NCBI RefSeq assembly: GCF_023897065.1
Contig: NZ_JAMHIV010000030.1
Coordinates: 1-64,000 of the forward strand
Length of the DNA: 64,000 nt
Direction of reading: 5' to 3'
Source of the DNA: Crossiella sp. SN42
GTDB lineage: Bacteria; Actinomycetota; Actinomycetes; Mycobacteriales; Pseudonocardiaceae
The number at the start of each line of letters is the position of its first letter. The first letter of the stretch is position 1. Made by a program: the position numbers and the translations under genes. A model generated the notes under the pieces. It worked only from the letters and a program-made list of their open reading frames with translations. It had not been told where the DNA came from and made no database searches. Below are positions 3,711 through 54,194 of this stretch, piece after piece.

Positions 3711-3755
3711 GTTTCAGCACGCCCCCAGCGCCGTCCGAGGTCCACGCCGAAACCT
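3711..3755 (+). promoter_or_regulatory. SARP box and -10 for GT1
   Basis: Heptads GTTTCAG (3711), CCCCCAG (3722) and GTCCGAG (3733) are spaced exactly 11 bp apart. Ten bases after the third comes the hexamer AAACCT (3750-3755), and seven bases later the ATG at 3763. The geometry matches the other putative SARP boxes here and implies a leaderless transcript. Confidence 0.6.
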
Positions 3756-3762
3756 GGTCGCC

Positions 3763-4935
3763 ATGCGCGTGCTGTTCACCACCTGGGCCTGGCGTTCGCA
3801 CTACAACCCGCTGGTCCCGCTCGGCCACGCGCTGCGCGCGGCAGGGCACGAGGTCATGGTCGCCAGCCACCCGTCCTTCGCGGACTCGATCACCGCCGCC
3901 GGTCTGCCCGCGCTGCCCGCCGGCCCCGAGGTCGACCTGCCCGAGGTGCTGAGCGCCGCGATCCGCACCAGCACCTGGCGGCCCAGCCCCGGGGCCCTCC
4001 CCCAGGCCGACAACCCGCTGCGCCGCCGCAAGGGCCTGACCGTGCTGCGCCTGGCCGCCGACAGCGCCACCGCGATGGCCGGGGACACCCGCCGCTTCGC
4101 CGAGTCCTGGCGACCGGACCTGGTGGTGTACGAGCCGATGGGCTTCCTCGGCCCGGTGCTGGCCCGCGCCATGGGCATCCCGTCCCTGCGCCAACTGTGG
4201 ACGGTGGACTTCCTGGCCGACATCCCCGAGGTGGAACAGGAGATCCTGGGCGAGCTGGCCGCCAGCCTCGGCGCGGACACCCCCAACGCCCTCGGCGACC
4301 GCACCCTGGACCCCTGCCCGCCGAGCCTGCGCGGCCCCGGCGACTACGAACGCCAGCCCATCCGCTTCGTGCCCTACAACGGCCCCGCGGTGCTGCCGCA
4401 CTGGCTGCGCACCCCGCCCCGCCGTCCCCGGGTCTGCGTCACCTGGGGCACCTCCATCGACGGCATGGGCCTCAACGACTACTTCCTCGCGCCCCAGGTG
4501 GTCCAGGCCCTGGCGGAGCGGGAGGTGGAGGTGGTGGTGGCGGTGGTCAACGGCCAGCGCGAGCTCTTCGGCGACCTGCCGCCCAACGTGGTGCACCTGG
4601 GCCCGGTGCCGCTGGACCTGTTGCTGCCCAGCTGTGTCGCGGTGGTGCACCAGGGCGGCGGCGGGACCACGATGACGGCGATGAAGGCGGGCATCCCGCA
4701 GTTCGTGCTGCCGTACCTGCCGGACACCACGTTCAACGCCCGGCACATCGCGGCCACCGGGGCGGCGCGGTGGGTGTGGGGCGGGACGGCGGACGCGTCG
4801 GTGCTGCGGGCGGAGCTGGCGGAGTTCCTGGACGGGCTGGCGGGGTATCGGGCGGGGGCGGAGCGGTTGCACGCCGAGCACCTGGCGCAGCCGAGTCCGG
4901 CGGAGGTGGTGTCGGTGCTGGAGCGCGCGGGCTGA
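3763..4935 (+). CDS. Glycosyltransferase GT1 (family 1, antibiotic type)
   Basis: A 390-residue GT-B enzyme. The N-terminal half starts MRVLFTTWAW and carries the acceptor-side motifs WRPDLVVYEP and LDPCPP. PYNGPAVLP and VCVTWGTS mark the domain junction, and the C-terminal HQGGGGTTMTAMKAG is the diphosphate-binding motif for an NDP-sugar donor. It shares this set of motifs with GT2, GT3 and GT6 in this window, so they are paralogues specialised for different sugars or positions. It is transcribed alone, divergently from the exporter, with a SARP-like box directly upstream. Donor and acceptor cannot be told from sequence. Confidence 0.92.
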   Translation: MRVLFTTWAWRSHYNPLVPLGHALRAAGHEVMVASHPSFADSITAAGLPALPAGPEVDLPEVLSAAIRTSTWRPSPGALPQADNPLRRRKGLTVLRLAADSATAMAGDTRRFAESWRPDLVVYEPMGFLGPVLARAMGIPSLRQLWTVDFLADIPEVEQEILGELAASLGADTPNALGDRTLDPCPPSLRGPGDYERQPIRFVPYNGPAVLPHWLRTPPRRPRVCVTWGTSIDGMGLNDYFLAPQVVQALAEREVEVVVAVVNGQRELFGDLPPNVVHLGPVPLDLLLPSCVAVVHQGGGGTTMTAMKAGIPQFVLPYLPDTTFNARHIAATGAARWVWGGTADASVLRAELAEFLDGLAGYRAGAERLHAEHLAQPSPAEVVSVLERAG

Positions 4936-5045
4936 CCGTGGTGCGGCAGCACGGAGCAGGTCGGGCCGGCTAAGTGCGCGGTCCGCGGCACGCCTAGACT
5001 GTACGGCCCGGCGGGGAGGCGAGCCGGGTCGAAGGGGGCAACGCC
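4936..5045 (+). promoter_or_regulatory. Promoter region of the GHKL gene
   Basis: The 110-bp gap contains a -10-like TAGACT at 4995-5000 and a strong ribosome site GAAGGGGG just before the GTG at 5046. No three-heptad SARP box is present, unlike the biosynthetic operons on either side. Confidence 0.4.
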
Positions 5046-8000
5046 GTGGACCGGTCGCACACCTACAACCTGATCATCAACTCGTCGATCACCGGGTCCG
5101 ATGTCGTACAGGCCAGGGACATCGGCGCGGCACCGGCCGCCGAGGCCGACATCTGGCGGCACGTGCACCCCGCGGCCGATGCCGCGCTGTACCGGGAGAG
5201 AACCGCCGAAGTGGTCACCCGGTTGAGCGAAATTCGGCAGGCGGTGGACACGGTGCTCGCCGCCGATCCGTGGCAGGACCCCGGTTATCCGGCACGGTTC
5301 CTGCACGAGCTGCACTGGCTGCTGGGCGACATGGAGCTGAGCGCGGCCGAGGCCGCAGTGCTCGTGCTGCTGCCGTTCCTGCGCGTGACGCACGACCGGC
5401 GACTGGCGGCCGCGCTGTCCGGTGTACGCCCGGCGGAGCTGACCCCGGAACCGGGCGACGAGGCGGAAAGGGCGGAGTTCGACTCGTTCGCGGCAGGCTT
5501 CGCGCCGCTGCGCGAACGGGCTCGGCTGCGGCCGGAGGCAGCGCCCGCGATCGGCTGGTGGCTGTTCCACCGCTGGCTCCGCCACCGGAACCCAGCCGCC
5601 GAACCCGGCCAGGTGGCAAAGCTGCTGAACCTGCTCGGGGAACCGGCGCTGGCGCTGGAAGAGACGTTCGCGGCAGAGCGGATGTTCCTTCTCCTGCAAG
5701 GACTTCGCCGTGGTCCAGGGGTCTGCAACCCGGAGTTTCTCGGCAACTTCCCCGCCGAGGACCGACTGCGCGCACCCGGGCGGCAGAAGTTGCGCGGCAG
5801 ACAACTGGCCCTGCTCGCCGCGCTGGCCCACGGCATGGCCATCGAACTGACCGCCCTGCCGGAGGTGGTGGGCGAACACCTGGGCATCCCGCACCCGGTC
5901 ACCCCGGAGGACCTGCGCCGGACCCTGGCGGCCGTGAAATGGGGCGGCCCACCGGAACTGCCGGTGCTCACCGCACGCTGCGAGCACGAGGCCGTGGTGG
6001 AGGCGCTGCGCGAACACACTGCCCGCCTGGACGAACTGCTGCACGAGGCACACCTCGCCGCGGGCGCCCCACTCGCCAAGACCCTTCCCACCCGGTTCTC
6101 CGCCGACCAGGTCACCGGCACCTTCGCGGGCTACGCACGTTTCCGGCACAGCAGCACCGGCGTCCGGAGCCTGCTGATGGGCGTTCAGCTGTACAAGGAC
6201 CCGGACCTGGCCATCCGCGAGCTCTACCAGAACGCCCTGGACGCCTGTCGCTACCGCACCGCCCGCACCGAATACCTGGACCGCACCCACCCGGCGACCT
6301 ACGACTACACCGGCCGGATCCGGTTCGAGCAGGGCGTGGACGACCAGGGCAGGCACTACGTCGACTGTCACGACAACGGCATCGGCATGGGCACCGCCGA
6401 ACTGCGCGGTGTGTTCTGCGACGCCACCGCGCGCTTCACCGACCAGGACGACTACCGCCACGAACTGGCCCGCTGGCAACAGCTGGCGCCGCCGGTGACG
6501 CTGTACCCGAACAGCCGCTTCGGCATCGGCGTCTTCAGCTACTTCATGCTGGCCGACGAAATCCTGGTGACCACCTGCCGAATGGGCATGGACGGCATAC
6601 CAGGGCCCGTACTGGAAGCGGCGATTCATGGGCCGGGGCATCTGTTCCGCATCGAGCAGCGGGCGGAGCGTGGGGCGGAGCCGGGGACGCGGGTGCGGTT
6701 GTACCTGCGGGATCCGGAGCGGTGGTCTTGCGTGGAGGTGCTGGAGCGGTTGCTGGGGATCGCGGAGTTCGAGACGACGGCGGAGGACGGGGACCGGGTT
6801 GAGACGTGGGCGCCAAGGCGGCTGCGGAGCCGCAAGGCTCCCGAGGAGAGGTTCGGGCTCAACGCCTACGGGGAGCTCGTACCATGGGATGGGGCGCCAG
6901 CGGGGATCCAGGTCATCTGGTGTGAACATGGTGGCGGTGTGCTGGTGGACGGGCTGGTGGTGGAGCCCTCCGAGCGTCGGCCACCATTCGGAACTTCGTC
7001 CTCGGGGCTTTCCGGCGTGGTGGTCAACCTGTTCGGCCCCGCCGCTCCTCGCAAGCTGTCGGCGGATCGAACAGAGGTGCAGGACGAAGATCTGCCCAGC
7101 CGAGTAGGCGAGGTATTGGAAGTTGCGATAGGCCCACTGATCGCCATGAACGGGTCTCTTCCGAGCTACGGGTGGATATGCGAGTTGGCCAGAACGAACG
7201 TAGCGCTGGCAGACCACTTCACGCTGGCTACTGCAGAGGCTGGCCTGCAACTACAAGGTGGCTCATTCACCTTCGACATGACCCGCGCGGGTTGTTTCTC
7301 ACGAGACTGGCACATCCTCAACAAGTACGGTGTTCGGCAGGGCATCGCAAATCTCGCGAAGTGGGTTGGGGCGACGCACTTCCCAGTGCCGGATCACATC
7401 TTGTTGTGGCGCTTGCTCGCCAACAGGGTCACACAGGCCCTCCGAGTGCTCACTGCGCTCGACCCGACTCTGTCCGAGGTCACTGTGCGCGTAGCGCGTC
7501 CGTCCGACGAGATGCTACTTGTCTTGGACAGACAAGGGGGATGGCTCGATCAGTGGACTAGCGTATCGGATCAGGACATTGCCAGCTTCGCGCACCGCAT
7601 GGGCGTCACCTCGACGGAGGTGTCCGCCGTCGCTCGTCAACTGGGGTTCGACAGCGCATCCACCAGCGCTGGCACACCACGTCCTGCAGAAGTCGATGAC
7701 CTGCGCAAAGCGCAACGGTCGTGGCAGGTGAACGCTGAGGAGGTCGCTCGTCAATGGCGTGCACGGGGTATAGATGTCCCTGAGGCGGTTGTGCGCATTG
7801 TCGCCAACGGTGAGGACACGTGGTTCTTGCAGCCGGACCCCGAGGACCAATACTACTGGCTTGATCCCAATAGTGCCGTTCCTGCTGGACATCTCGCCCT
7901 TGCCAGCCTGAACTCCGGTCGCCCGGTATCCGAGGTCCGCACGAGACTGGAACAGCTGGGATTTCGCGTCGACACGGTCAACCTGCCGGAGTATCCGCAG

Positions 8001-8759
8001 GCGGAGGTCGTGACGTTGCTCAGCGGTAACAGAACCAGGCGATCACGGTGGCTAACCCGCGGTGAGCCGGTGCCGCCAGGCCACATCATGCGGTCCTCAG
8101 CTGATTTGGGAATGTCCGTGGCCACCGTGCTGGAGCAGCTGGAGCGCTTCGGTTTCGAGGTGCCCGTGCTCCCAGCTAACGCCACTGCAGCCGAGCATGT
8201 TCTGTTGGGTGACTATCAGCTCTCCGGCCCAATACCCGCGCAGCACCTAGTGCGCTCGGCAGATGTCCTGGGAGTTACGATCTCGCAGGTGGTCGGGCGA
8301 CTTCGAGACTACGGCTTTCTCATCGAGGTCGACCCGCCTGCCCAACCCAGTCCGGATGAGCGGAACCTGTTCGGCCCCCGCGGCCCGATGCGCTGGGCAG
8401 ACGTCACCAGCAACACCTCGATCACCCTGGCTGAGGTGGTTGTGGCCGCTGTCGAGCTTCGCATGCCCCTTGAAGAGGCCGTGCGCCATGTCACCCACTA
8501 CGGCTTCTCGCTGTCAGCGACGGAGCTGCCAGACGGACTTACCTTTGACCTCGCGTGCGAGCTCCTGGAGTGCCAAGCCGTCGAAGGTGGCAGCGTCATC
8601 AGTAGAATCGACAACTCGCTCGAAGAATTCCTGGATGGTGCACTGCGTCTGGGCGTGTCGATCGACCAGCTCGTCTCCTGGTGGCGCGGCCTCGGCATCG
8701 ACGTGCCCGACCCCCGGATCGCCCTCCGCGCGGCCCTGGCCCGCGTCCCCCGCGCCTAG
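5046..8759 (+). CDS. GHKL/HSP90-like ATPase with repeat C-terminus (conflict-system type)
   Basis: This 1237-residue protein starts with a short motif, NSSITGSDVVQARDIGA (residues 12-28), of the VVQARDI kind common at the N-terminus of actinobacterial STAND/GHKL conflict proteins. The GHKL ATPase lies at about 365-560, with the N-box IRELYQNALDACRYR and G1 box DNGIGMG. The last 390 residues hold about seven copies of a helix unit of the form (A/L)xxLGVSxxxVxxxLxxxGFxV, starting near 848, 885, 952, 1017, 1071, 1135 and 1199. These probably form winged-helix-like adaptor repeats. Codon third positions are clearly less GC-rich from about 7070 to 8650 than before, suggesting mosaic origin. The nearby SARP boxes skip this gene. 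A biosynthetic role is unlikely; a signalling or defence role is inferred from domain type only. Confidence 0.7.
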   Translation: MDRSHTYNLIINSSITGSDVVQARDIGAAPAAEADIWRHVHPAADAALYRERTAEVVTRLSEIRQAVDTVLAADPWQDPGYPARFLHELHWLLGDMELSAAEAAVLVLLPFLRVTHDRRLAAALSGVRPAELTPEPGDEAERAEFDSFAAGFAPLRERARLRPEAAPAIGWWLFHRWLRHRNPAAEPGQVAKLLNLLGEPALALEETFAAERMFLLLQGLRRGPGVCNPEFLGNFPAEDRLRAPGRQKLRGRQLALLAALAHGMAIELTALPEVVGEHLGIPHPVTPEDLRRTLAAVKWGGPPELPVLTARCEHEAVVEALREHTARLDELLHEAHLAAGAPLAKTLPTRFSADQVTGTFAGYARFRHSSTGVRSLLMGVQLYKDPDLAIRELYQNALDACRYRTARTEYLDRTHPATYDYTGRIRFEQGVDDQGRHYVDCHDNGIGMGTAELRGVFCDATARFTDQDDYRHELARWQQLAPPVTLYPNSRFGIGVFSYFMLADEILVTTCRMGMDGIPGPVLEAAIHGPGHLFRIEQRAERGAEPGTRVRLYLRDPERWSCVEVLERLLGIAEFETTAEDGDRVETWAPRRLRSRKAPEERFGLNAYGELVPWDGAPAGIQVIWCEHGGGVLVDGLVVEPSERRPPFGTSSSGLSGVVVNLFGPAAPRKLSADRTEVQDEDLPSRVGEVLEVAIGPLIAMNGSLPSYGWICELARTNVALADHFTLATAEAGLQLQGGSFTFDMTRAGCFSRDWHILNKYGVRQGIANLAKWVGATHFPVPDHILLWRLLANRVTQALRVLTALDPTLSEVTVRVARPSDEMLLVLDRQGGWLDQWTSVSDQDIASFAHRMGVTSTEVSAVARQLGFDSASTSAGTPRPAEVDDLRKAQRSWQVNAEEVARQWRARGIDVPEAVVRIVANGEDTWFLQPDPEDQYYWLDPNSAVPAGHLALASLNSGRPVSEVRTRLEQLGFRVDTVNLPEYPQAEVVTLLSGNRTRRSRWLTRGEPVPPGHIMRSSADLGMSVATVLEQLERFGFEVPVLPANATAAEHVLLGDYQLSGPIPAQHLVRSADVLGVTISQVVGRLRDYGFLIEVDPPAQPSPDERNLFGPRGPMRWADVTSNTSITLAEVVVAAVELRMPLEEAVRHVTHYGFSLSATELPDGLTFDLACELLECQAVEGGSVISRIDNSLEEFLDGALRLGVSIDQLVSWWRGLGIDVPDPRIALRAALARVPRA

Positions 8760-9106
8760 TCCCCCTGCGCCCAAGCCGCCACCGGCAGCGACAGGTACAC
8801 GCCGAAGTCCGCCAGTCCGGTGGCCGCCGCGATGTCGGCGTGCAACCGGTCCACCCGTTCCTGCCGGTTGGCGGCCCGGCTCTCGAACCACTTCGACTTG
8901 ATCTCGATCACCACGTCCAGCCCGCAGCGGTCCAGTGGCCCCAACTGCCGGAACCGGATCTCCACATCCCCCGGCTGCAAATCGCCGTCGTAGGGCTCCT
9001 CCGGGCACTCCACCGCCACCGACACCAGGTGCGGCAACACCGAGCCGAGTTCGCGGAGGAGCGACTCGGCGACCTGCGGGGCATGAATGACTTCCACGAG
9101 CGGCAC
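8756..9106 (-). CDS. Small hypothetical protein, tautomerase-like
   Basis: This 116-residue protein starts from GTG at 9106. Its first residue after Met is proline (MPLVEVIHAP), and the layout resembles the 5-carboxymethyl-2-hydroxymuconate isomerase/4-oxalocrotonate tautomerase fold, where Pro1 is the catalytic base. The similarity is weak and judged by eye. Its stop codon overlaps that of the convergent GHKL gene in the palindrome CTAG. It may have arrived together with that gene. Confidence 0.5.
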   Translation of the reverse strand: MPLVEVIHAPQVAESLLRELGSVLPHLVSVAVECPEEPYDGDLQPGDVEIRFRQLGPLDRCGLDVVIEIKSKWFESRAANRQERVDRLHADIAAATGLADFGVYLSLPVAAWAQGD

Positions 9107-9115
9107 CGGACCACT

Positions 9116-10351
9116 CTAGGCCGGATCCTCCGTGGGCACATCAAATTCGGCGCGGTAGGCCGCGGTGCGGTGGCGGAGGGCGGACAGGTCGAGGCCCAGT
9201 TCGCCGGGGCGGTAACGGATGCGGCCGAAGCGGTGGGGGTGGCGTTGGGTGTGCAGCTCGGTCATCGCGGTCAGCGCGGGGTCGGTCAGGGGCAGGCCGG
9301 CGGTGGTGTAGACGCGGCGCACCACCGCCGCTGGGTCGTCCCTGATCTCGTGGAGTCCGATGTGGACGGACCGGCCGGGCGGGATCCGGGTGTGGTCGCG
9401 CAGGCAGCGGTCGGTCATGCCGGTCACGCGGTCGGTCCAGTACGCGGCGATGCGGCGTGGGTCGACCTGGGCGCTGGCGAGGCGCTGGGCGTAGGCGAGC
9501 ATGGTGGCCAGGGACGGGGTCACCGCGGCTGGGTCGCGGTGGGTCAGGACGAGGGTGGCGTCGGGGAAGGTGGTCAGCAGGGCGGGGAGTTGTTCGATGT
9601 GCTGCATGGTTTTCAGGGCCCAGCGGCCGCCGCTGTGGCGCCAGCTCAGCACCTGCAGGACCCGGCGCAGGTAGGCGTAGGCCGGGCGTTGCTCGGTGGC
9701 CAGGTACCAGTCGCGGTAGGTGGGCAGCACGGCCTGGGTCTCGAACAGGATCGAGGAGAAGCTCAGTGCCAGCAGGCGGATCTCCTCGTGCACCGAGTCG
9801 GGGCTGACCTCCAGCATGCGTTTCAGGTGCGGCAGGGCCTGCTCGACCACCTCGGCGTAGTGCTGCGCGGCGGGGTCCGGTTCTGGGTCCTCGCCTGGGG
9901 TCTGGGCTTCGGACTCGGTGAGGTGGCGCAGGGCGGGGTCGGCGGCGAGCAGGCCGTGCAGGAAGGTGGTGCCGGAGCGGGGCAGGCCGGCGATGATGAT
10001 GGGCGCGGGCACCGGTTCGGCCAGGATCTCCGGGTGCGCCTTGATCAAGGCCTCTACTCGCAGGCGGGTGCGGAGGAAGCCGAGTAGCTGGTGGTACTGG
10101 CTGAGCAAACCGAGGGGGCTCAGGGCGGCTTCGGTGCGCAGCGCGGTGCAGAGCACGGACAGGGGCTCGTGGAACCAATCCGGGCCGAAGTCCTCGTGGC
10201 CGGTGGCCTCGGCGGCCTCGGTCAGCAGGCGGTCGGGGTGCAGCCGGGCGGCGAGCTTCGCGGGGTCGAGGTTGTGGTTCCAGCGCGCGAGCTCCGGGGG
10301 CAGGCCGGGGGTGGCGAGGTCCTCGATGCGGAAGTCCGCCGGGCCGCTCAT
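9116..10351 (-). CDS. PAPS-dependent sulfotransferase
   Basis: The 411-residue protein has the 5'-phosphosulfate-binding loop LPRSGTTFLHGLL near residue 140 and the 3'-phosphate motif VLTHRDP near 280. Both are typical of the Sulfotransfer_3 family, which transfers sulfate from PAPS to hydroxyl groups. The ATG at 10351 overlaps the stop of the upstream membrane-protein gene (ATGA). An APS kinase fusion at 20712 could supply PAPS, so O-sulfation of the polyketide or a sugar is a reasonable inference. This pair is preceded by a MarR-type element rather than a SARP box. Confidence 0.85.
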   Translation of the reverse strand: MSGPADFRIEDLATPGLPPELARWNHNLDPAKLAARLHPDRLLTEAAEATGHEDFGPDWFHEPLSVLCTALRTEAALSPLGLLSQYHQLLGFLRTRLRVEALIKAHPEILAEPVPAPIIIAGLPRSGTTFLHGLLAADPALRHLTESEAQTPGEDPEPDPAAQHYAEVVEQALPHLKRMLEVSPDSVHEEIRLLALSFSSILFETQAVLPTYRDWYLATEQRPAYAYLRRVLQVLSWRHSGGRWALKTMQHIEQLPALLTTFPDATLVLTHRDPAAVTPSLATMLAYAQRLASAQVDPRRIAAYWTDRVTGMTDRCLRDHTRIPPGRSVHIGLHEIRDDPAAVVRRVYTTAGLPLTDPALTAMTELHTQRHPHRFGRIRYRPGELGLDLSALRHRTAAYRAEFDVPTEDPA

Positions 10352-11034: not shown

Positions 11035-11079
11035 AGCTGAGGTTCCTCTCAAAGGCCGCAGGGCGGTGCGGTGCCGCCT

Positions 11080-12114: not shown

Positions 12115-12120
12115 GCGGCC

Positions 12121-12165
12121 AGCCTGCCCGGGGCGGCTGGGCTCGTGCTGGTGTGGCGCTGAGCC
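12121..12165 (-). promoter_or_regulatory. SARP box and -10 for methyltransferase 12114
   Basis: Reading toward 12114, heptads GGCTCAG, ACACCAG and AGCCCAG lie at 11-bp intervals (12165-12137). Ten bases later comes CAGGCT (12126-12121), and six bases later the ATG. All three heptads end in CAG. This is the clearest example of the element in the window. Confidence 0.65.
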
Positions 12166-12206
12166 CAGAACCGCTGGAGCGGCGCTGGATCGGGCGGTGC
12201 TGGGCT
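12162..12206 (+). promoter_or_regulatory. Candidate SARP box for the 12213 operon
   Basis: AGCCCAG (12162), GCTGGAG (12173) and GCTGGAT (12184) repeat every 11 bp. A weak hexamer TGGGCT follows after 10 bp, and GTG 12213 six bases on. It overlaps the divergent box for 12114. The geometry supports GTG 12213 as the start, but two heptads depart from the CAG-ending form. Confidence 0.4.
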
Positions 12207-12212
12207 GCCGTC

Positions 12213-13166: not shown

Positions 13167-14102
13167 GTGCCGCTCACCGCACCGGAACTCGACCGCACCG
13201 GCCGCGCCATCCACCGGGCGGTGATCATCGGCGGCGCCGGGTTCATCGGCAGCAGTCTCAGCGCGGCGCTGACCAGCTGCCACATCGACACCGCCTGCTT
13301 CACCAGGCGCTCGCCGTTCCTGCACCAGGACGAGCTGAGCTATCCGTTGCACACCACCAGGATCGTCTACTACCTGGCCAGCAGCATCAACCCGGCGCTC
13401 GGTGAGGCGCACCCGGACTGGGCGGCCGCCGACCTGGCGCTGTTCGGGCGCCTGCTGCGCCGCCTGGCCCGGCTGGCGGAGCCACCGGCGGTGGTGCTGA
13501 CCAGCTCCGGCGGCACGGTCTACGACCAGGCCGTGCCGCCGCCCTACGCCGAAACCGACCCGGTGCGGGCCACCGGTCGTTACGGCGCGGCGAAACTGGC
13601 CCTGGAGCAGGAGCTGTTCCGGCACTCCGATCGGGTGCCGGGCGCGATCCTTCGTCTGTCCAATGTGTACGGACCGGGGCAGCGGGCGGTCAAGGGCCAG
13701 GGGGTGCTGGCGCACTGGCTCGGCGCGGTGCTGGACGATCGTCCACTGAGGATAGTCGGCGATCCGGCGGCCAGCCGGGACTACGTGCACATCGACGACC
13801 TGGTGGCCGCGATCCACCTGCTGGACCGGCACATCCGCACCGGCGGCCTGGCCGGGCGGGGCGAGCCGCTGGTGCTCAACATCGGCTCCGGGCGACCCAC
13901 CTCGCTGACCGAGCTGGTGCGGGTGGTGCGCGCGGCCACCGGCCGGGACGTGCCGGTGGAGCTGCTGCCGGCGCGGCGCTACGACCGGCAGCACGTGTGG
14001 CTGGACGTGCGCGCGGCGGCCGCGGTGCTGGGCTGGCGGCCGGTCACCGGGCTCGCCGAGGGGGTGGCCGGGATGTGGCGGTGGCTGCGCGCCCGGCCGT
14101 GA
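13167..14102 (+). CDS. NAD-dependent sugar epimerase/4-ketoreductase
   Basis: This 311-residue extended SDR has the Rossmann motif VIIGGAGFIGSS, the catalytic TSSGGTVYD/YGAAK pair (Ser/Tyr/Lys) and the sugar-binding LSNVYGPGQ and SRDYVHIDDL motifs. Such proteins reduce or epimerise NDP-4-keto-6-deoxyhexoses. With dehydratases elsewhere in the cluster, a C-4 ketoreductase or epimerase in deoxysugar synthesis is likely. The start is GTG 13167 with GAGGAGG upstream. Confidence 0.8.
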   Translation: MPLTAPELDRTGRAIHRAVIIGGAGFIGSSLSAALTSCHIDTACFTRRSPFLHQDELSYPLHTTRIVYYLASSINPALGEAHPDWAAADLALFGRLLRRLARLAEPPAVVLTSSGGTVYDQAVPPPYAETDPVRATGRYGAAKLALEQELFRHSDRVPGAILRLSNVYGPGQRAVKGQGVLAHWLGAVLDDRPLRIVGDPAASRDYVHIDDLVAAIHLLDRHIRTGGLAGRGEPLVLNIGSGRPTSLTELVRVVRAATGRDVPVELLPARRYDRQHVWLDVRAAAAVLGWRPVTGLAEGVAGMWRWLRARP

Positions 14103-14112
14103 TCCGAGCACG

Positions 14113-14151
14113 GCACCAGCGCCAGCCCGCACCATCTGCTCCGACAACGCT
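14113..14151 (+). promoter_or_regulatory. Weak candidate SARP box upstream of 14171
   Basis: GCACCAT (14129) is followed after 10 bp by AACGCT (14146), the same spacing as other boxes. The two upstream heptads (AGCACGG, AGCGCCA) fit poorly. The 68-bp gap is otherwise empty, and a GGGAG ribosome site precedes the ATG. Confidence 0.25.
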
Positions 14152-14917: not shown

Positions 14918-14919
14918 GC

Positions 14920-20598: not shown

Positions 20599-20643
20599 AC
20601 GCTAGGTCTGGTCAACCGGGTGCCGCTCCGGTCGTCCTGGTGC
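20599..20643 (-). promoter_or_regulatory. Candidate SARP box and -10 for 20591 operon
   Basis: Toward 20591: GCACCAG, ACCGGAG and ACCCGGT lie at an 11-bp period (20643-20615). Ten bases later comes TAGCGT (20604-20599), then seven bases to GTG. The hexamer is the best -10 among these sites. Confidence 0.55.
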
Positions 20644-20660: not shown

Positions 20661-20705
20661 GTCCGAGCAGGCCACCAACGCGGCACCAGCCGGGCGCGGC
20701 ACGGT
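20661..20705 (+). promoter_or_regulatory. SARP box and -10 for 20712 operon
   Basis: GTCCGAG (20661), CCACCAA (20672) and GCACCAG (20683) are spaced 11 bp apart. CACGGT starts 10 bp after the last heptad, and six bases later comes ATG 20712. The final heptad and the linker CGCG are identical to those before GT6. Confidence 0.6.
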
Positions 20706-20711: not shown

Positions 20712-21647
20712 ATGGCCTCCATCCTGTGGTTCACCGGCCTGTCCGGTGCGGGCAAGTCCACCATCGCCGCCGTGGTCGAAGGCAGGCTGCGGGCCGCCGG
20801 GCGCGCGGTGTGCGTGCTGGACGGGGACCGGTTGCGCGCCGGGCTGAACCGGGACCTGGGTTTCTCCCTGGCGGACCGGACCGAGAACGTGCGGCGGGCG
20901 GCCGAGGTGGCCCGGCTGCTGGCCGATGCCGGGCTGGTGGTGCTGGTGGCGTTGATCTCGCCGCTGCGCGCGGACCGGGCGCTCGCGCGGGACACCGTGG
21001 GCGGGCACGACTTCCGGGAGGTGTTCGTGGACGCGCCGCTGGCCGTGGCCGAGCGACGCGATCCCAAGGGCCTCTACCGCAGGACCAGGGCCGGGGAGCT
21101 GCCCGAGTTCACCGGGATCGACTCGCCGTACGAGCCGCCGGAACACCCTGATCTGCGCCTGGACACCACCGTGAGCACCCCGGAGCAGGCCGCCGATGCC
21201 GTGCTGGCGCTGCTGAGCGCCCCGCCGCGGCCGCCGGAGCTACGGGCAGCCGATGTCCGGGAGCTGCTGCGCACCGAGCGGCACCTGTGGCTGGCCACCG
21301 CGAACGGCCGCGGCCCGCACCTGGTCCCGCTGGCCTTCACCTGGGACGGCACGCACGTCTACGCCACCACCAAGCGGCGCAACCGCAGCATCGGCAACCT
21401 CGCCGGCGACGGCCGGGTCCGGCTGGCCGTGGGCAGCACCAGGGACGTGGTGCTGCTGGACGCCACCGCGAGCGTGCACCCGCCGGGCGAGCTGCCGCCG
21501 GAGTGCACCGCGGGGCTGCCACTGGACCCCGGCCGGGTGCCCGGCGCGGTGGTGCTGCGCCTGACCCCGCACCGGATCCAGGCCTGGCGCGGGCTGCCGG
21601 AGATCCCCGGCCGGACCGTGATGGCCGAGGGGAGCTGGCTGTGCTGA
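20712..21647 (+). CDS. APS kinase fused to a pyridoxamine-phosphate-oxidase-like domain
   Basis: A 311-residue two-domain protein. Residues 1-175 are adenylylsulfate kinase: Walker [27 protein letters not shown], and [18 protein letters not shown]. This domain makes PAPS from APS and ATP. Residues about 180-311 look like an FMN/F420 split-barrel (PNPOx family), with [20 protein letters not shown] and [11 protein letters not shown]. The fusion is unusual. PAPS supply for the cluster sulfotransferase at 9116 is the simple explanation for domain one; domain two may be a redox or binding module. It opens a plus operon. Confidence 0.82.
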
Positions 21648-24216: not shown

Positions 24217-24305
24217 CGCCCTGCCCCCGCACTCCGAGTCCGCCGGTGTCGCGGTCCATGCTAGGCCAGCCGGACCAGCGGGCTCACCCCACTGGCCTGA
24301 TCCTG

Positions 24306-34742: not shown

Positions 34743-35161
34743 CACCGGCTCGCAATCTCCGGATGGGGCGCATCCGGGTTCGGCAGCTCCTCGGTGTCCA
34801 CGTGTCCCAGGCTCGGTTCCGGCGCCAGCGGGCCGAGCTGGAACACCGCGAAGGCCTCCTGCTCGGCGTTGTTCTCGATGCGGTGCCGGGAACCGATGGG
34901 CACCAGCACGCCCTCGCCAGCCGCCAGGCTGAGCAGCTGCCCGTCGATCCAGGCGTCCACCTGGCCGCGCACCAGGTAGAGGAACTCCTCGGAGTAGGGG
35001 TGGTAGTGCTCGGCGACGAACTCGCCGGGCCGCAGCGTGAGCACGCCGAGGAACCCGGCGGAGGCGCCGACGGTGCGCGGGCTGAGCAGCACCCGGATGT
35101 CGCCGCCGCGCCTGCGGTTGGCCGGGATGTCCTCGGCCCTGACCTTGCGCAGCCCGGTCAT
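34742..35161 (-). CDS. Cupin-type polyketide cyclase (TcmJ/WhiE-II type)
   Basis: This 139-residue cupin has the metal-binding pattern [16 protein letters not shown] and GSRHRIENN. Such proteins (TcmJ, RemF, WhiE ORFII) assist ring closure in tetracenomycin-like and pentangular polyketides. ATG 35161 overlaps the TcmI-like gene stop. The combination with TcmI-type cyclase is a pentangular marker. Confidence 0.88.
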
Positions 35162-35512: not shown

Positions 35513-36562
35513 TCAGCCGATGCTCGCCGCGGCCGGTGGTGTGGTGCTGGGGAGGCGCTCAGCCGCGTCGGCGGCGGCCTCCAGCACGCTCAGCCGCTCG
35601 TGCGGGGTGGCCGCGAGCAGGGTCAGGCCGAGGGTGGTGACCCCGGCCTCGCGGTACTGGGCCAGCCGGGCGGCGATCCGGCCGGGGTCGCCGAGCAGCG
35701 CGGTGGCGTCGATCAGCTCGAAGGGCACCGCCTCGGCCGCGCCCTCGGCATCGCCCGCGGCGCGGCGGCGGTGGATCTCCGCGGCGGCGCGTTCGAAGCC
35801 CAGTTCGGTGGCCAGGCGGTAGTAGATGCTCCTTGCCGGGTCGCCGAGGCCGATGAAGTGGGCGAAGTAGCCGCGCAGCGACCGGGCCGCGCGCTCCGCG
35901 TCTTCGTCGACCGCGATCGGCACCGACGGCATGACCTCGAAGCCCGCCAGCGTCTTCCCCGCCTTCGTTCGTCCTTTGTGGACATATTGGAGGGCGGTGC
36001 TGATCCGCTCGGGTGGGCTGAACACGCCGATCCAGCCGTCGGCGACCTCCCCGGCCAGCTCCAGGCTGCGCGGGCCGACCCCGGCCAGGTGGATCGGCAG
36101 GTCGGCGCGCACCGGGGCGGCCCGCAGGTGCGCGGTCTCCGCCGCGCCCGGCGGCGGCAGCCGGTAGTGCTCGCCGTGGTAGCGCACGGGTTCGCCGCGC
36201 AGGGCCAGCCGCACGATCTCCACGTACTCGCGCAGCCGGCGCAGCGGGCGGTCGAAGTCCACGCCGTACCAGCCCAGGGAGACGTCCGGGTTGGAGACCC
36301 CGAGCCCGAGCCGGAACCGGCCGCCGGAGAGCGAGTCCAGGGTGGCCGCGGTGAGCGCGGTCAGCACCGGGGCGCGCGCGGCGATCTGCAGCACCCCGGA
36401 GGCCAGGCCGATCCGGCTGGTGCGCCCGGCGACCGCGCCGAGCACGCTCACCGCGTCCGAGCGGAAGCCCTCCGGGGCCAGCGCGGTGGCATAGCCCAGC
36501 TCCTCCGCGCGCCGGGCCAGCCCGACCGCGCCGTCCTGGTTGAGGAACACCCCGAGCCGCAT
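35513..36562 (-). CDS. Luciferase-like (LLM) flavin/F420 oxidoreductase
   Basis: This 349-residue TIM-barrel oxidoreductase has MRLGVFLNQDG at the start, RIGLASGVLQIAARAP, SGGRFRLGLGVSNP and the C-terminal GDPGRIAARLAQYREAGV, all typical of F420- or FMN-dependent bacterial luciferase-like proteins. In polyketide clusters they reduce or oxidise ring carbonyls. As first gene of the core PKS operon it may act early in tailoring. The cofactor cannot be told from sequence. Confidence 0.85.
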   Translation of the reverse strand: MRLGVFLNQDGAVGLARRAEELGYATALAPEGFRSDAVSVLGAVAGRTSRIGLASGVLQIAARAPVLTALTAATLDSLSGGRFRLGLGVSNPDVSLGWYGVDFDRPLRRLREYVEIVRLALRGEPVRYHGEHYRLPPPGAAETAHLRAAPVRADLPIHLAGVGPRSLELAGEVADGWIGVFSPPERISTALQYVHKGRTKAGKTLAGFEVMPSVPIAVDEDAERAARSLRGYFAHFIGLGDPARSIYYRLATELGFERAAAEIHRRRAAGDAEGAAEAVPFELIDATALLGDPGRIAARLAQYREAGVTTLGLTLLAATPHERLSVLEAAADAAERLPSTTPPAAASIG

Positions 36563-36638: not shown

Positions 36639-36683
36639 TCAACAGCGCTGCCCCAGCGCGGCACCAGTGGCCGGCGCGAGGGT
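36639..36683 (+). promoter_or_regulatory. SARP box and -10 for GT6 operon
   Basis: TCAACAG (36639), GCCCCAG (36650) and GCACCAG (36661), all ending CAG, lie 11 bp apart. GAGGGT begins 10 bp after the last heptad, and ATG 36690 follows six bases later. Confidence 0.62.
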
Positions 36684-41363: not shown

Positions 41364-41408
41364 ATCGTGGGCGGGGCGAATCGCGTGCCGCTGGGGCAGT
41401 TCTGGGAC
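41364..41408 (-). promoter_or_regulatory. SARP box and -10 for 41357 operon
   Basis: Toward 41357: GTCCCAG (41408), GCCCCAG (41397) and ACGCGAT (41386) at 11-bp period, then CACGAT (41369-41364) after 10 bp and GTG six bases later. The first two heptads are close to consensus. Confidence 0.6.
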
Positions 41409-41414: not shown

Positions 41415-41885
41415 TCAGTCCTTCTGCTGCCAGTGCCGCCCGCCCTGGCGCCGCTCCTGCCGGTTGGCCGCTGCCATGGCCTCCTCCAGCTTGCCCAGCA
41501 GCCTGCCCAGCGTGCGCACGTCCGCCGGGTCCCAGTCGGCGACGAAGGTGGCGAAGCGCTCCAGGCCGACCTTGGTCAGCCGGTCCACCTCGGCGCGGCC
41601 GGAGTCGGTGAGGGTGATGAAGCAGGAGCGCCGGTCCTCCGGGTCCATGGCCAGGGTGACGTGGCCGGACTCCTCCAGCGCGCGCACCTGGCGGGTGATC
41701 GAGGACTGGTGCACGCCCAGCGCGGTGGCGATCTCGGAGGGGCGCACGTTGTCCCGGGTGGCGGCGGCCTGCAGCACGGTGAGCGCGGTCGCGCCGGAGC
41801 GGCCGCGCCAGGCCCGTTGCACGCCCACGCTGACACTGACCAGCGGAACCGCCATCCGCTCCACGTCATCCATGCTCGGCCGCAT
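41415..41885 (-). CDS. MarR-family transcriptional regulator
   Basis: This 156-residue winged-helix repressor has RPSEIATALGVHQSSITRQV as the recognition region and DPEDRRSCFITLT as the wing. MarR proteins usually repress their own gene and a nearby export or modification gene until a phenolic ligand binds. The element in its promoter recurs before the membrane-protein/sulfotransferase pair at 11034, suggesting that pair is its target. Confidence 0.88.
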   Translation of the reverse strand: MRPSMDDVERMAVPLVSVSVGVQRAWRGRSGATALTVLQAAATRDNVRPSEIATALGVHQSSITRQVRALEESGHVTLAMDPEDRRSCFITLTDSGRAEVDRLTKVGLERFATFVADWDPADVRTLGRLLGKLEEAMAAANRQERRQGGRHWQQKD

Positions 41886-41887
41886 GC

Positions 41888-41918
41888 CCCCATCGTAGAA
41901 CTACTTGCTCTCGGCAAT
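41888..41918 (-). promoter_or_regulatory. Promoter/operator of the MarR gene
   Basis: On the minus strand, TTGCCGAGAGCAA is an inverted repeat (TTGC-N5-GCAA). It runs into GCAAGTAGTTCTACGATGG, which contains a -10-like TACGAT and matches the 11034 promoter at 16 of 19 positions. It fills the 32-bp gap after the NRPS gene. Confidence 0.55.
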
Positions 41919-44900: not shown

Positions 44901-45046
44901 CGCTCGGCCAGTTCGCCATAGCTGATCTCCCGCCCCCGCCAACGGAGGGCGGGCGCGTCCGGGCGGGTCTGGGCCCAGCGCAGCACCAGGGCGTCGAGGC
45001 GGCCGGTGGCGGGGTAGGCGATCTCGGGTCCGTGCACGAGGGGCAT
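41918..45046 (-). CDS. Free-standing NRPS module, A-PCP-C
   Basis: A 1042-residue protein. The adenylation domain spans about 15-545, with FTTSGTTGGPRAVLSPHAG, NVYGPVECAI, YWTGDLG and PLTPNGKVD (Lys). The carrier domain has VGADSLTAIRL (Ser about 605), and the condensation domain has LAHHTAFDGWS (HHxxxDG, about 783). By hand the specificity pocket reads D-A-W-F-L-G-V-I-A-K, suggestive of leucine-like substrates, but this alignment is approximate. Residues about 118-185 are a Pro/Ala repeat inserted in the A domain. The C domain could join the amino acid to an amine or hydroxyl of the glycoside. A SARP-like element favours an alternative GTG start at 45037. Confidence 0.9.
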   Translation of the reverse strand: MPLVHGPEIAYPATGRLDALVLRWAQTRPDAPALRWRGREISYGELAERAAAMAAGLRARGVRPGERLLVWLGRGPEQVAVLLGAMMCGAVPAGAALDWPVARVARVAERIGAVLAVVEDALPIPPAPHAAPAPVASAPHAAPAPVAPALLAAPAPPASAPLAAPVPPAPPPLAAPAPGGSVPPAPMPLATGDPLLPCPVARVAELPSFPARPDPFPGTAADPCCVFTTSGTTGGPRAVLSPHAGTVRIALDPHLAMDHTVQMLQISPPGWDAAAWELWAPLVNGGVSVLFDGVHLTTGELRREISHGLTTVFLTTSLFNALVDSDPSAFTGLRHVLTGGERMSPHHAARFRAGQPGIRLTNVYGPVECAIAVTWWDVPQWTDGELPVGLPSANTGVHVLDESGDPAPPGTMGQVVVTGDGVGLGYLGDPAATAERFGELAGERAYWTGDLGVRDGAGVLWFRGRVDRQFKLRGVRVDPEEIEAVLAAAPGVRRAVVLALPLGEVAKRRVVAFCTGTGEGLRERVAAALPPAFVPERVFTVDSVPLTPNGKVDTARLAALAEPPRPVAPAASGPPEVTALAEAAAELLGFPVGPDTDLFAVGADSLTAIRLVSRLQPALGPGLTVRSVLEHRRPQDIAARLTGPARRGERRGRDWRWVGGLPISQYRMWYLEQQAPGTPDLVHPMLFHLTGPLDRAALATALRQVFARHEALRTRLHSADGRHITAELTDAPADPLTCLPTGDLASTVAELTARPFDLSADLPLRAWLLREGPERHQLLLLAHHTAFDGWSEAVLCRDLSTAYATGSLPPAPGYRAVARTQAGLVDTADDDYWLDQLRGVPELPLEPDPPGGHGLREVPVDRTGLDRVRAAAALAAWVLALREETGAADFAVGLPLAGRTVAEADSVIGCFASSAVLRFPASVRTPSACLDWAGTQLARALEAQSLPLERAYWELAPPATGRNPFCQAGFVVQNTEQGELVLPGLTVRRERVPQRDSVFELALVLWPDSGYVWHRADVVSPGRAQRLAARWRHWMREFPPDV
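44490..44690 (-). repeat. 33-bp tandem repeat inside the A domain
   Basis: About five imperfect 33-bp units encode 11-residue repeats (PHAAPAPVASA, PHAAPAPVAPA, LLAAPAPPASA, PLAAPVPPAPP). They sit between early and core A-domain motifs, where the family has a short loop. This is probably a flexible, length-variable insertion produced by slippage. Confidence 0.75.
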
Positions 45047-45089
45047 GGCAGCTCTGGGTGGTCGAGAAGTGCTGGCGCGGGCCTGGACC
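45045..45089 (-). promoter_or_regulatory. SARP box and -10 for the NRPS gene
   Basis: Toward the NRPS: GGTCCAG (45089), GCGCCAG (45078) and TCTCGAC (45067) at 11-bp spacing, TGCCAT (45050-45045) after 10 bp, then seven bases to GTG 45037, which is in frame. The hexamer overlaps the ATG at 45046, so if active it would make GTG 45037 the start. Confidence 0.5.
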
Positions 45090-45115: not shown

Positions 45116-45146
45116 GGCTGGGGTTCCGGTCGGCGGGAGGGCAGTG

Positions 45147-48573: not shown

Positions 48574-48575
48574 CC

Positions 48576-50914: not shown

Positions 50915-50920
50915 CTCGGG

Positions 50921-50936
50921 CGTGGCTCAGGCCACG
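50921..50936. terminator. Hairpin at convergent P450/SARP ends
   Basis: CGTGGC-TCAG-GCCACG forms a perfect 6-bp stem with a 4-nt loop between the converging genes, overlapping the SARP stop codon. There is no T-tract, so it is at best a stem-only bidirectional terminator. Confidence 0.4.
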
Positions 50937-52768
50937 GTGTCCAGCGCGGCGGGCTGGTCCTCGGCGCCCGCCGCGCCCAGCACGAACGAGCGGACCAGCG
51001 CGGGCAGCACGAACCCAGTCTCGCCGCTGATGTCCAGATCGGCCAGCTGCAGGAACCTGGCGTCGGCGAGCTGGTCCAGCAGCACCTCCACCGCGGGCGC
51101 GTCCAGGCCGATCAGCGCGGCCACCCCGGCGGCGATGAAGATGGTGGCGTTGTGCTGGGCCAGCCGTTGCAGCACCCGCCGCGCCGGACCGGCCAGCCGC
51201 CGGTAGCTGGGCGTGAGCCGGGCGCCCAGGTCCAGCTCGCCGAAGCGCAGCTCGGTGAGCCGCCGCCGCTCATCGGCCAGCCGGGCGGCCACCCGGCACA
51301 GCGGGGTCCTCGGCCGGGCGGCGAGCTTCGCGCCGACCATGCGCACCGCCAGCGGCAGCTGCCCGCACAGCTGCACGATCGCCCGCGCGGACTCCGGTTC
51401 GGCCTGGATCCGCGCCCGATCGGCCAGCCTGGCCAGCAGTTCCAGGCAGTCCGGCAGCGGCAGGGTGTCCACCTCCACGATGCCTGCCCCGGCCAGGCCG
51501 GGCAGGTAGGTGCGGCTGGTGACCAGCACCGCGCACCCGGCGCCCCCGGGCAGCAGCGGGCGCACCTGCCCCGCCGCGGCCGCGTCGTCCAGCAGCACCA
51601 GCACCTTGCGCTCCGCGGTCCAGCTGCGGAACAGGCTGCTGCGCTCGGCCAGGGTGCCCGGCAGCGCCTCGCCGGGCAGCCCGGTGGCGCGCAGGAAGTC
51701 ACCGAGCACCTCGAACGGATCAGCCGGATCCTCCCCGGAACCGCCCAGCTCGGCGTGGAACTGGCCGTCCGGGAACTCCGCCCGCGCCTGGTGCGCGGCG
51801 CGCACCGCCAGCACCGACTTGCCGACCCCGGTCATCCCGGTCAGCGACACCACGCGCACCGCGGTGCCGTCCCGGTCCGCGGTGGCCAGCTCCCGGACCC
51901 GGCGGATCTCCGCGGCGCGGCCGACCAGGTCGCCGATGTCCGGCGGCAGCTGCGCGGGCCGGGTGAACGCGCCCAGCGTGCCCAGGTTCAGCGCGCCGGT
52001 CAGCTGCGGCGGGCAGGGCGCCTCGTCGGCGTGCAGCAGCGCGTCCTGCAGGCCGCGCAGCCCGGCCGAGGGCTCGATGCCGAGCTCCTCGATGAGGGTG
52101 CGGCGCAGCTGCTGGTAGGTCTCCAGGGCCTCGGAGCGGCGGCCGCAGCGTTCCAGGCTCATCATCAGCTTGGCGTGGAAGTTCTCGTGGAACGGGTGCT
52201 CCACGGTGAGCGACTTCAGTTCGCTGATCAACTCGCGGTGGCGGCCCAGCTGGAGTTCGGCCTCCATGCGCAATTCCACCGCCTGGAGTTTGGCCTCGGC
52301 GAGCTGGTTCAGGTGCGCGCTCAGCACCGGGCCCGCCTCGACATCGGCCAGCGGCGCGGCCGAGGACAGTTTCAGCGCACCGGCGAGAATTTCCGCCGCT
52401 TTGTCCGGCTCGCCGCTTTCCAGCGCGGTGCGGCCCTGGGCGACCAGCTGCTCGAAGACGTCCCGGTCCAGGTCGCCGTCGGCGAGCTCCAGCAGGTAGC
52501 CGAGCGGTTTGGTCAGCAGGGTCCGCCGCTCGGCCGGATCGGCCCCGATCATCAGCCTGCGCACCTGGTAGATGTAGGTCTGGAGGGTGGCAAGCGCGCT
52601 GGCCGGCGCGTGGTCGCCCCAGATCTCCTCCATCAGCGTGCCGGTGGTGACGACGTGGCCGTGGCGTAAGGCCAGCAGTGCGAGCAAACTTCGCAGTTTC
52701 TGCGCACTGGGCGTGATGTTTTCCCCGCCGGCGGTCACCGCCAGCGGTCCAAGCACGGAAATACGCAT
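50927..52768 (-). CDS. AfsR-type SARP transcriptional activator
   Basis: A 613-residue regulator. Residues 1-95 form an OmpR-like winged-helix (MRISVLGPL, LRSLLALLALRHG) and about 98-245 the bacterial transcriptional-activation domain (LIEELGIEPSAGLRGLQ). An NB-ARC ATPase with Walker A GMTGVGKSVL (near 310) and Walker B VLVLLDDAAA follows, then a winged-helix tail. It lacks the TPR region of full-length AfsR. SARPs bind heptad repeats on an 11-bp period. Many operons here carry such repeats, so this is the likely pathway activator. ATG 52768 is preferred over an upstream GTG. Confidence 0.92.
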   Translation of the reverse strand: MRISVLGPLAVTAGGENITPSAQKLRSLLALLALRHGHVVTTGTLMEEIWGDHAPASALATLQTYIYQVRRLMIGADPAERRTLLTKPLGYLLELADGDLDRDVFEQLVAQGRTALESGEPDKAAEILAGALKLSSAAPLADVEAGPVLSAHLNQLAEAKLQAVELRMEAELQLGRHRELISELKSLTVEHPFHENFHAKLMMSLERCGRRSEALETYQQLRRTLIEELGIEPSAGLRGLQDALLHADEAPCPPQLTGALNLGTLGAFTRPAQLPPDIGDLVGRAAEIRRVRELATADRDGTAVRVVSLTGMTGVGKSVLAVRAAHQARAEFPDGQFHAELGGSGEDPADPFEVLGDFLRATGLPGEALPGTLAERSSLFRSWTAERKVLVLLDDAAAAGQVRPLLPGGAGCAVLVTSRTYLPGLAGAGIVEVDTLPLPDCLELLARLADRARIQAEPESARAIVQLCGQLPLAVRMVGAKLAARPRTPLCRVAARLADERRRLTELRFGELDLGARLTPSYRRLAGPARRVLQRLAQHNATIFIAAGVAALIGLDAPAVEVLLDQLADARFLQLADLDISGETGFVLPALVRSFVLGAAGAEDQPAALDTVA

Positions 52769-52904
52769 TATGAACACCCCAGCAATGCATTAATTCATCA
52801 CCCAGAAAAGGTGGACAACTACACGCTACCGCCAGCTTCTCCCTTCTGCAACAAACCGGCCGAATTCCCAAGAGCCGGTAAAGGAACAGTGGAATTCCGG
52901 TATT
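52769..52904 (-). promoter_or_regulatory. SARP gene promoter region
   Basis: This is one of the most AT-rich gaps in the window. On the minus strand TTGCAG (52851-52846) and TAGCGT (52828-52823) are separated by 17 bp, a good sigma-70-type promoter. A leader of about 45 nt with GGGGTG follows before ATG 52768. No heptad repeats of the SARP type were seen, so auto-activation is not indicated. Confidence 0.5.
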
Positions 52905-54110
52905 TCAGGACGCGCGGGCGATCACCGGCTCGGCGCCGATCCGGTCCTGGATGGCCCGCCCGTTCCTGGCCGCGAAGCGCAGCAGGCGGCAGAGCCGGTC
53001 GATCTGTTCCGCGCCCACCGCGGTGCCGGTGGGCAGGGCGAGGCTGCGCGCGGCCAGCGCCTCGGTGTGCGGCAGCCGGGTGCCGTCCCGGTAGGGCGCC
53101 ATCAGGTGGCAGCCGGGGTGGAAGTACCGGCGCGCCAGCACGTTCTCGGCCAGCAGCACCTCGTGCAGGGTGTCCCGGCCCAGCCCGGTCACCGTCTCGT
53201 CGACCTCGGCGACCACGTACTGGAAGTTGTTGTCCTCGGCCGGGTCGAAGGCCAGCAACCGGATTCCCGGCGCGGCGGCCAGGCCGGCGGTGTAGCGGGC
53301 GTGGTTGTGCGCGTTGTGCGCGCGGAACTCCTCCAGACTGTCCACAGAGGTCAGTCCCATGGCCGCGGACGCCTCGCTCATCTTGGCGTTGACCCCGACC
53401 TGCGCCACCTCATCCGGCCCGGTGAGGCCGAAGTTGCGCAGGCTGCGCGCGCGCTCGGCCAGCGCGTCGTCGTCGGTGACCAGCGCCCCGCCCTCGAAGG
53501 CGTGCACGAACTTGGTGGAGTGGAAGCTGAACACCTCGGCCGCGCCGAAGGAGCCGATCGGCCGCCCGCGCCAGCTGCACGCGAAGGCGTGCGCGGCGTC
53601 GAAGAGCAGCCCGATGCCGTGCCGGTGGGCCAGCTCGGTCAGCTCGTCCAGGCGGTGGCCCCGGCCCCACAGGTGCACGCCGAGGATGCCCGAGGTGCGC
53701 GGGCCGATCAGGGTGGCGGCGTGCCCGGGGTCCAGGCCGCCGGTGACCGGGTCCACGTCGCAGAACACCGGGGTGAGCCCGAGCCAGGCCACCGCGTGCG
53801 CGGTCGCGGCGAAGGTCAGCGCGGGCACGATCACCTCGCCCCGCCAGCCCGCGGCGCGGATGGCCAGTTGCAGGGCGAGGGTGGCGTTGCAGGTGGCCAC
53901 GCAGTGCCGGGCGCCGGTGATCCTGGCCACCCGGTCCTCGAACTCGGCCACCAGCGGCCCGCCGTTGGACAGCCAGCCCCGGTCCAGCGCGCCGCCGAGC
54001 CTGGCGAAGAACCGCGCCCGGTCACCGATGTTGGGCCTGCCCAGGCGCAGCGGGGTGCGGAACTCCGGTGTCCCGCCGAACCGGGCCAGCTCACCCACGA
54101 CAGCCTTCAC
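52905..54110 (-). CDS. PLP-dependent sugar aminotransferase (DegT/DnrJ family)
   Basis: This 401-residue protein has the DegT/EryC1 fold with the PLP lysine in FSFHSTKFVHAFEGG, plus NATLALQLA and LFDAAHAFACSW. It resembles DesI-like NDP-4-keto-6-deoxyglucose aminotransferases that make 4-amino-4,6-dideoxysugars. C-3 amination is the alternative. An aminosugar amine would be a natural acceptor for the amino acid from the NRPS module. GTG 54110 follows a GGGGGTGG ribosome site, and a SARP-like box lies upstream, so it belongs to the cluster. Confidence 0.85.
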   Translation of the reverse strand: MKAVVGELARFGGTPEFRTPLRLGRPNIGDRARFFARLGGALDRGWLSNGGPLVAEFEDRVARITGARHCVATCNATLALQLAIRAAGWRGEVIVPALTFAATAHAVAWLGLTPVFCDVDPVTGGLDPGHAATLIGPRTSGILGVHLWGRGHRLDELTELAHRHGIGLLFDAAHAFACSWRGRPIGSFGAAEVFSFHSTKFVHAFEGGALVTDDDALAERARSLRNFGLTGPDEVAQVGVNAKMSEASAAMGLTSVDSLEEFRAHNAHNHARYTAGLAAAPGIRLLAFDPAEDNNFQYVVAEVDETVTGLGRDTLHEVLLAENVLARRYFHPGCHLMAPYRDGTRLPHTEALAARSLALPTGTAVGAEQIDRLCRLLRFAARNGRAIQDRIGAEPVIARAS

Positions 54111-54149
54111 AAACCCACCCCCGTGACGCCCGGCGGAACCAGCGGCCCG

Positions 54150-54194
54150 ATCCTGAGCGGCGCCGGTAGGACCGGACTGGGGCGACGCTGGTCC
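54150..54194 (-). promoter_or_regulatory. SARP box and -10 for the aminotransferase
   Basis: Toward 54110: GGACCAG (54194), GCCCCAG (54183) and GTCCTAC (54172) at 11-bp spacing, then CAGGAT (54155-54150) after 10 bp. A leader of about 33 nt with a ribosome site precedes GTG 54110. This is the right-most box found. Confidence 0.55.

Follow-up and report, generated by a model that had tools for sequence, protein, structure and literature searches.

Published SARP-type promoters, as far as the consulted portion of PMC10936776 describes them, are built of direct repeats with a period of 11 or 22 bp, the 3' one of which lies 8 bp from the -10 element. According to the same portion of that report, two AfsR protomers sit side by side on positions -40 to -19 and cover a poor -35, and the -10 of afsS is CACTGT. 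We examined a stretch of 64,000 nucleotides from Crossiella sp. SN42 (the window: bases 1-64000 of contig C24, in a 9.7 Mb genome), in which a type II polyketide synthase (PKS) cluster contains a SARP gene (50927-52777) and repeated sites stand in front of many operons. Judging from the sequence, we consider it highly probable that these sites are activator-dependent promoters of the PKS cluster, driven by its SARP and together forming that regulator's target set.

Three heptads on an 11-bp period

An initial interpretation made from the letters alone (the sequence-only reading) had proposed a SARP regulon marked by the pattern heptad-N4-heptad-N4-heptad-N10-hexamer, with seven strong and five weaker sites. 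All seven strong sites carry that pattern at the places given for them. The 11-bp period, put forward as the known SARP geometry, agrees with the published rule as far as it is set out in the excerpted PMC10936776, and with a de novo search on operon heads. The published 8-bp spacing fits as well, because reading the heptad two bases later (NCCAGCG for GCNCCAG) turns N10 into N8. If positions are counted from the start codon (+1), heptads 2 and 3 occupy the place of the AfsR box, one turn downstream of heptad 1.

The de novo search was an expectation-maximisation (EM) procedure that sought three equal heptads at any one period, with no consensus supplied, in the 100 bp before 16 operon heads: 11 starts from the sequence-only reading together with 14164 (near 14171), 5046, 35478, 41885 and 52777. 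Period 11 scored 64.3, against 20.3-35.9 for the other periods from 7 to 16, and 40 shuffles at period 11 gave a mean of 20.8 and a maximum of 26.4. When the heads suggested by the matrix described below (14164 and 35478) were removed and two flanking heads included, the score was 54.2 at period 11 and no higher than 30.5 at periods 8-10 and 12-14. Only heptads entered the search, and from them alone a -10 signal emerged 10 bp downstream: among the 13 places with a posterior of at least 0.5, T stood at position 6 in 11 and A at position 2 in 8. The starts of the iHD-CE, MarR and SARP genes received an EM posterior of 0.0.

Matrix scans within the genome

A matrix of the seven strong sites was evaluated by leave-one-out against 40 stretches of the same genome (800 kb, both strands, 1,596,480 positions). 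Some of these stretches come from contigs that had been listed for carrying SARP-type genes, so the background contains some real sites. With heptads sharing one matrix, the background positions scoring as high as the omitted site numbered 3, 1, 1, 2, 1, 149 and 1 for 3763, 12114, 20712, 36690, 41357, 45037 and 54110; with a free matrix the counts, in the same order, were 0, 0, 0, 4, 0, 134 and 0. The site at 45037, before the nonribosomal peptide synthetase (NRPS) gene, is thus weaker than the other six. Leaving sites out cannot undo their choice by eye, which the de novo runs and the other genomes address.

A scan of 3.7-54.3 kb returned 10 matches scoring at least 16, whereas 40 shuffles gave a mean of 0.15 and a maximum of 1; the rest of the window held none at 9 or above. 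Seven of the 10 are training sites and three are new (ending at 35564 on the minus strand, beginning at 14091 on the plus strand and ending at 29865 on the minus strand). For the five weaker sites we used a null of 10,640 stretches of 150 bp (quantiles: 90%, 2.5; 99%, 7.9; 99.9%, 12.2). The site at 20591 held up (10.2) and that at 12213 was borderline (7.7, with the right start distance), while those at 36562 (1.6) and 45147 (0.1) failed the matrix test, yet had de novo EM posteriors of 0.88 and 0.72. At 14171 there is indeed a site, though not in the register first proposed; it is better placed at 14091-14135 (17.6).

Carry-over to other type II PKS loci

Among 200 genomes, 71 had a match to the alpha subunit of the ketosynthase (KS alpha), and we took 20 with enough contig around it. 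At a threshold of 14, the window matrix found 30 matches in the 20-kb KS stretches of these 20 genomes, as opposed to 4 in 20 control stretches from the same genomes. This yield depended on the geometry: at altered periods the KS stretches gave 1-6 matches and the controls 1-11 (the highest count at period 12), and altered gaps (6-9 and 11-14) gave 4-10 in KS stretches and 0-3 in controls, while the gap of 10 gives the 30. An earlier scan of 24 loci of 4.2 kb had found 6 matches of at least 16 in 201,624 positions, compared with 5 in the 1,596,480 positions of the own-genome background. A matrix built on one cluster can point to likely promoters close to type II PKS genes in other actinomycete genomes. 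In the nearest related cluster (G261), a site scoring 12.3 precedes the homologue of gene 41357, whose GTG lies 6 nt past the -10. The matrix also extends to a second type II PKS locus of this genome, on contig C23, described below. Together with the consensus-free period of 11 and the published geometry, this carry-over supports the SARP regulon interpretation.

Predicted promoters

We count 11 sites, namely the seven strong ones and those of 12213, 20591, 14091 and 35564. On the left, 3711-3755 (plus strand, -10 AAACCT; leave-one-out score 14.0, EM posterior 1.0) precedes the glycosyltransferase gene 3763, which starts 7 nt past the -10. Two divergent sites follow: 12121-12165 (minus, CAGGCT; leave-one-out 18.4, posterior 1.0) before the O-methyltransferase gene 12114, and its weak partner 12162-12206 (plus, TGGGCT; score 7.7, just below the 99% null quantile, posterior 0.97) before the amidohydrolase gene 12213, both with the start 6 nt past the -10. 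The site 14091-14135 (plus, CACCAT; score 17.6, 9.2 with the free matrix, posterior 0.86) lies before 14164, whose ATG is 28 nt off. Next come 20599-20643 (minus, TAGCGT; score 10.2, posterior 0.59), 7 nt from the start of the epimerase, aminotransferase and glycosyltransferase genes at 20591, and 20661-20705 (plus, CACGGT; leave-one-out 19.6, posterior 1.0), 6 nt from the start of the APS kinase gene 20712.

The site 35520-35564 (minus, GAGCAT; score 19.8, posterior 0.99) is absent from the sequence-only reading. It lies in the 3' end of a luciferase-like gene, before the PKS operon of polyketide cyclase 35478 and the ketosynthase and acyl carrier protein (ACP) genes, with GTG 41 nt off. Farther on, 36639-36683 (plus, GAGGGT; leave-one-out 19.3, posterior 1.0) precedes the glycosyltransferase gene 36690, and 41364-41408 (minus, CACGAT; leave-one-out 20.0) precedes 41357, each 6 nt from the start; for the latter, EM settled one repeat upstream with a posterior of 0.89. 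The weaker NRPS site 45045-45089 (minus, TGCCAT), with GTG 7 nt past the -10, has a leave-one-out score of 8.0, equal to the 99% null quantile, and EM chose another place. Finally, 54150-54194 (minus, CAGGAT; leave-one-out 21.2, posterior 0.93) lies before the DegT aminotransferase gene that precedes the SARP gene, with GTG 39 nt off.

A further match at 29821-29865 (minus; score 17.4, free matrix 12.2), upstream of the PPDK-like gene 29780, stands outside the 11. We consider it doubtful because it falls deep within an open frame interpreted as a gene (29778-30095), though its free-matrix score exceeds that of 14091, which was kept because it is at a gene junction where the sequence-only reading had already put a site.

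A hexamer beginning with TTG is absent, by eye, from the -35 position (17- or 18-bp spacing) at all 11 sites; the repeats cover that region. The start codon lies 6-7 nt past the -10 at 8 of the 11 (5.9% by chance), a count that includes sites picked for standing before genes. These predicted leaderless starts, like the better register for 14171 and the site 35520-35564, are new here. Among the 10 window matches of at least 14 found by scanning (seven of them training sites), ATG or GTG lies 5-8 nt off in six, and the 6-7 nt distance recurs in 3 of the 30 KS-stretch matches of other genomes. Over the 11 sites, heptad 1 outscores heptad 3 in five, is outscored by it in five and ties with it in one. 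As had been proposed, the sites skip the GHKL insert and the glycoside hydrolase operon: the best score is -4.7 before the iHD-CE gene and 0.0 before the CE2 gene heading that operon.

At the start of the MarR gene we noted a -10-like TACGAT 6 nt before the ATG (41886-41897) with no heptads, possibly, from its letters, another leaderless promoter outside the SARP set.

The SARP regulator

The SARP gene that was said to lie in the cluster is present (50927-52777, minus strand) and encodes 616 aa with Trans_reg_C, BTAD and NB-ARC domains, as assigned by Pfam and by the AfsR structures 8k60 and 8jke. Residues 4-579 align with AfsR (E 1.2e-104), covering an N-terminal OmpR-type DNA-binding domain and BTAD (PF00486, PF03704) and a NOD/NB-ARC domain (PF00931) with Walker A GMTGVGKS in the AfsR alignment. 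For a C-terminal tetratricopeptide repeat (TPR) region there was no match at E 0.001, and the alignment stops at residue 595 of the 993 of AfsR. The recognition helix is LQTYIYQVR; by pattern, a helix of LQTY or MQTY type occurs in 10 of 13 type II PKS inputs, with none in L060, L144 and L145. A contig scan with this SARP gave four loci with 34-39% identity in the best segment. The gene for a DegT/EryC1-type aminotransferase (52905-54110, Pfam) lies upstream on the same strand, 127 bp away. At the thresholds used, scanning for sigma-70 promoters around the SARP gene returned none. By eye, TTGCAG-N17-TAGCGT can be read ahead of the SARP start, which we offer as a suggestion only.

Proposed mechanism and alternatives

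From these features we infer the following course of regulation. The SARP of 50927-52777 would bind the 11-bp repeats from one side of the helix, over the position normally taken by a -35 element, and would bring RNA polymerase carrying the main sigma factor to -10 boxes of poor quality (mostly nAnnnT). Leaderless transcripts, beginning with the start codon itself, would arise at 8 of the 11 sites, and the site 54150-54194, ahead of the aminotransferase gene adjoining the SARP gene, would provide positive feedback by read-through. Such regulation is of a known kind, in a cluster that as far as we found is new to study; its most unusual feature is the predicted leaderless arrangement.

A number of results weigh against this reading of the sites. 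Eleven of the 16 de novo heads came from the sequence-only reading, two of whose five weak sites fail the matrix test. Two of the 13 EM places differ from the claimed site, that of 41357 being one repeat upstream and that of 45037 elsewhere, with its T there by chance. When all 51 gene starts were used, most of which lie within operons, the search scored period 9 at 78.3, period 12 at 60.8 and period 11 at 53.0; periods 9 and 12 come probably from the codon periodicity of upstream genes, and because this periodicity probably dominates that run the search needs operon heads. With rough start calls at five related loci, G123 alone prefers period 11 (35.1, as against at most 24.0), and G261, G316, G058 and G297 gave no such preference. 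No match of at least 14 was found in 5 of the 20 KS stretches of other genomes, 13 of the 20 loci had already been partly scanned before being chosen (the matrix being unchanged), and among the six matches of at least 10 in G261 one is strong and one moderate. Within the cluster, the luciferase-like gene and the 2,3-dehydratase gene have no convincing site by matrix score. The SARP helix also resembles those of two SARP-type genes not chosen for PKS genes (L001 and L002); because they share the LQTY/MQTY type, and the helix is like that of many SARP-type genes, it tells little. BTAD regions in this genome number at least 56, from the 150 of 203 candidates that were scored, which would allow a different SARP to bind the sites.

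This last point leads to the alternative that fares best, namely that the sites are SARP boxes whose main activator is another SARP, acting alone or by cross-talk: an AfsR-like global regulator, or the small SARP near the KS alpha gene of contig C23. The best and third-best matches in the own-genome 800 kb stand back to back beside that second KS alpha, 5 kb from the small SARP, and contig C56, which has a third KS alpha, shows a match of 20.8 at a distance of about 8 kb from it; because the window matrix finds strong sites there, the boxes at C23 and C56 are similar to the cluster's. We nevertheless think this alternative improbable, as the cluster has its own SARP with a site ahead of the upstream neighbour, and the two related clusters in G261 and G316 also hold a homologue of that SARP (52% and 46% identical).

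Operators of a different regulator, such as the MarR-type protein encoded within the cluster (41415-41885), are a far less probable explanation. MarR operators are usually palindromes, whereas the sites here are direct repeats whose spacing to the -10 is constant, like SARP sites, and the start of the MarR gene itself has no site (score 1.8). Chance, meaning that CCAG words frequent in GC-rich DNA were selected and refined by eye, could appeal to the 51-start run and to the 130 genome matches (82 + 48) of a two-CCAG-plus-RTG pattern at this spacing, a search that we set aside as too unspecific, but the leave-one-out ranks and shuffles, the -10 signal obtained from heptads alone and, most strongly, the geometry-dependent carry-over leave it a negligible probability.

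Within the preferred reading, activation by the cluster's SARP, we also consider a more specific version, in which most operons would be transcribed, leaderless, from genuine three-repeat promoters under the control of this NB-ARC SARP, with three protomers and with activation tied to leaderless translation. Three protomers acting together, unlike the two-protomer AfsR complex, are suggested because the upstream third repeat is about as well kept as the -10-proximal one. On the present sequence data we regard this version as speculative and rather unlikely; a promoter set of fixed spacing allows one to ask whether a third SARP protomer binds.

The cluster and its surroundings

The cluster encodes KS alpha (33480-34745, minus strand, Pfam), KS beta, ACP, a ketoreductase and cyclases, with genes for several EryCIII-like glycosyltransferases, deoxysugar formation, a sulfotransferase and APS kinase; an NRPS, two P450s, the MarR protein and the SARP are also present. 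Because a sulfotransferase (9116-10000) and APS kinase (20712-21647) occur here, and homologues of both in the related clusters of G261 and G316, the predicted product is probably sulfated. Between the first glycosyltransferase gene and the rest of the cluster lies the iHD-CE / wHTH-Hsp90-associated gene (5046-8759), without a SARP-type site; this family is tied to conflict systems. Among the PKS genes we also observed a protein with PPDK_N and PEP-utiliser domains (27467-29780), with homologues in G261 (54.5%) and G316 (50.6%). Carbohydrate-active genes stand in a row from 55309 on.

In G346, a genome of the same species, a 20-kb stretch is collinear with window positions 318-1801, 8752-9119 (91%), 23751-24312 (81%) and 54208-64000 (96%), and has 3.8 kb extra near 1350, inside the 318-1801 match. 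The remaining cluster is unmatched in that stretch, KS alpha not having been searched in G346, and for the SARP that genome's best match is at 43%. Because the short matching pieces look like remnants, the cluster may have been lost from G346 by deletion.

We found no paper on this cluster in the literature searched, as judged from the listings. With these sites, a cluster for a glycosylated and probably sulfated aromatic polyketide, without earlier study as far as we found, has a regulon that can be tested.

Comparison with known SARP systems

Sites of DnrI and ActII-ORF4 have the core TCGAG. The core here (N-C-C/G-A-G) resembles it, the usual third base being C (CCAG) here and G there. The sites of DnrI, ActII-ORF4, FdmR1 and VlmI, as far as they are treated in the consulted part of the review PMC10972967, likewise comprise three heptads with spacers of at least 4 bp over the -35 region; unlike the DnrI-type sites, those described here have predicted leaderless starts at 8 of 11.

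The PimR operator, according to the excerpted PMC5930380, shares the three heptads and 4-bp spacers. It differs in its heptad (CGGCAAG), in having no -35 overlap and in serving a single target gene.

AfsR with the afs box (PMC10936776, in its consulted portion; structures 8k60, 8jke and 8hvr) has the same order of SARP region and then NB-ARC/NOD, the 11-bp repeats, a poor -10 and an overlapped -35. AfsR differs in having 993 aa, TPR repeats and two repeats in its box, whereas the regulator described here has 616 aa, with no TPR detected, and its predicted promoters carry a third repeat farther upstream.

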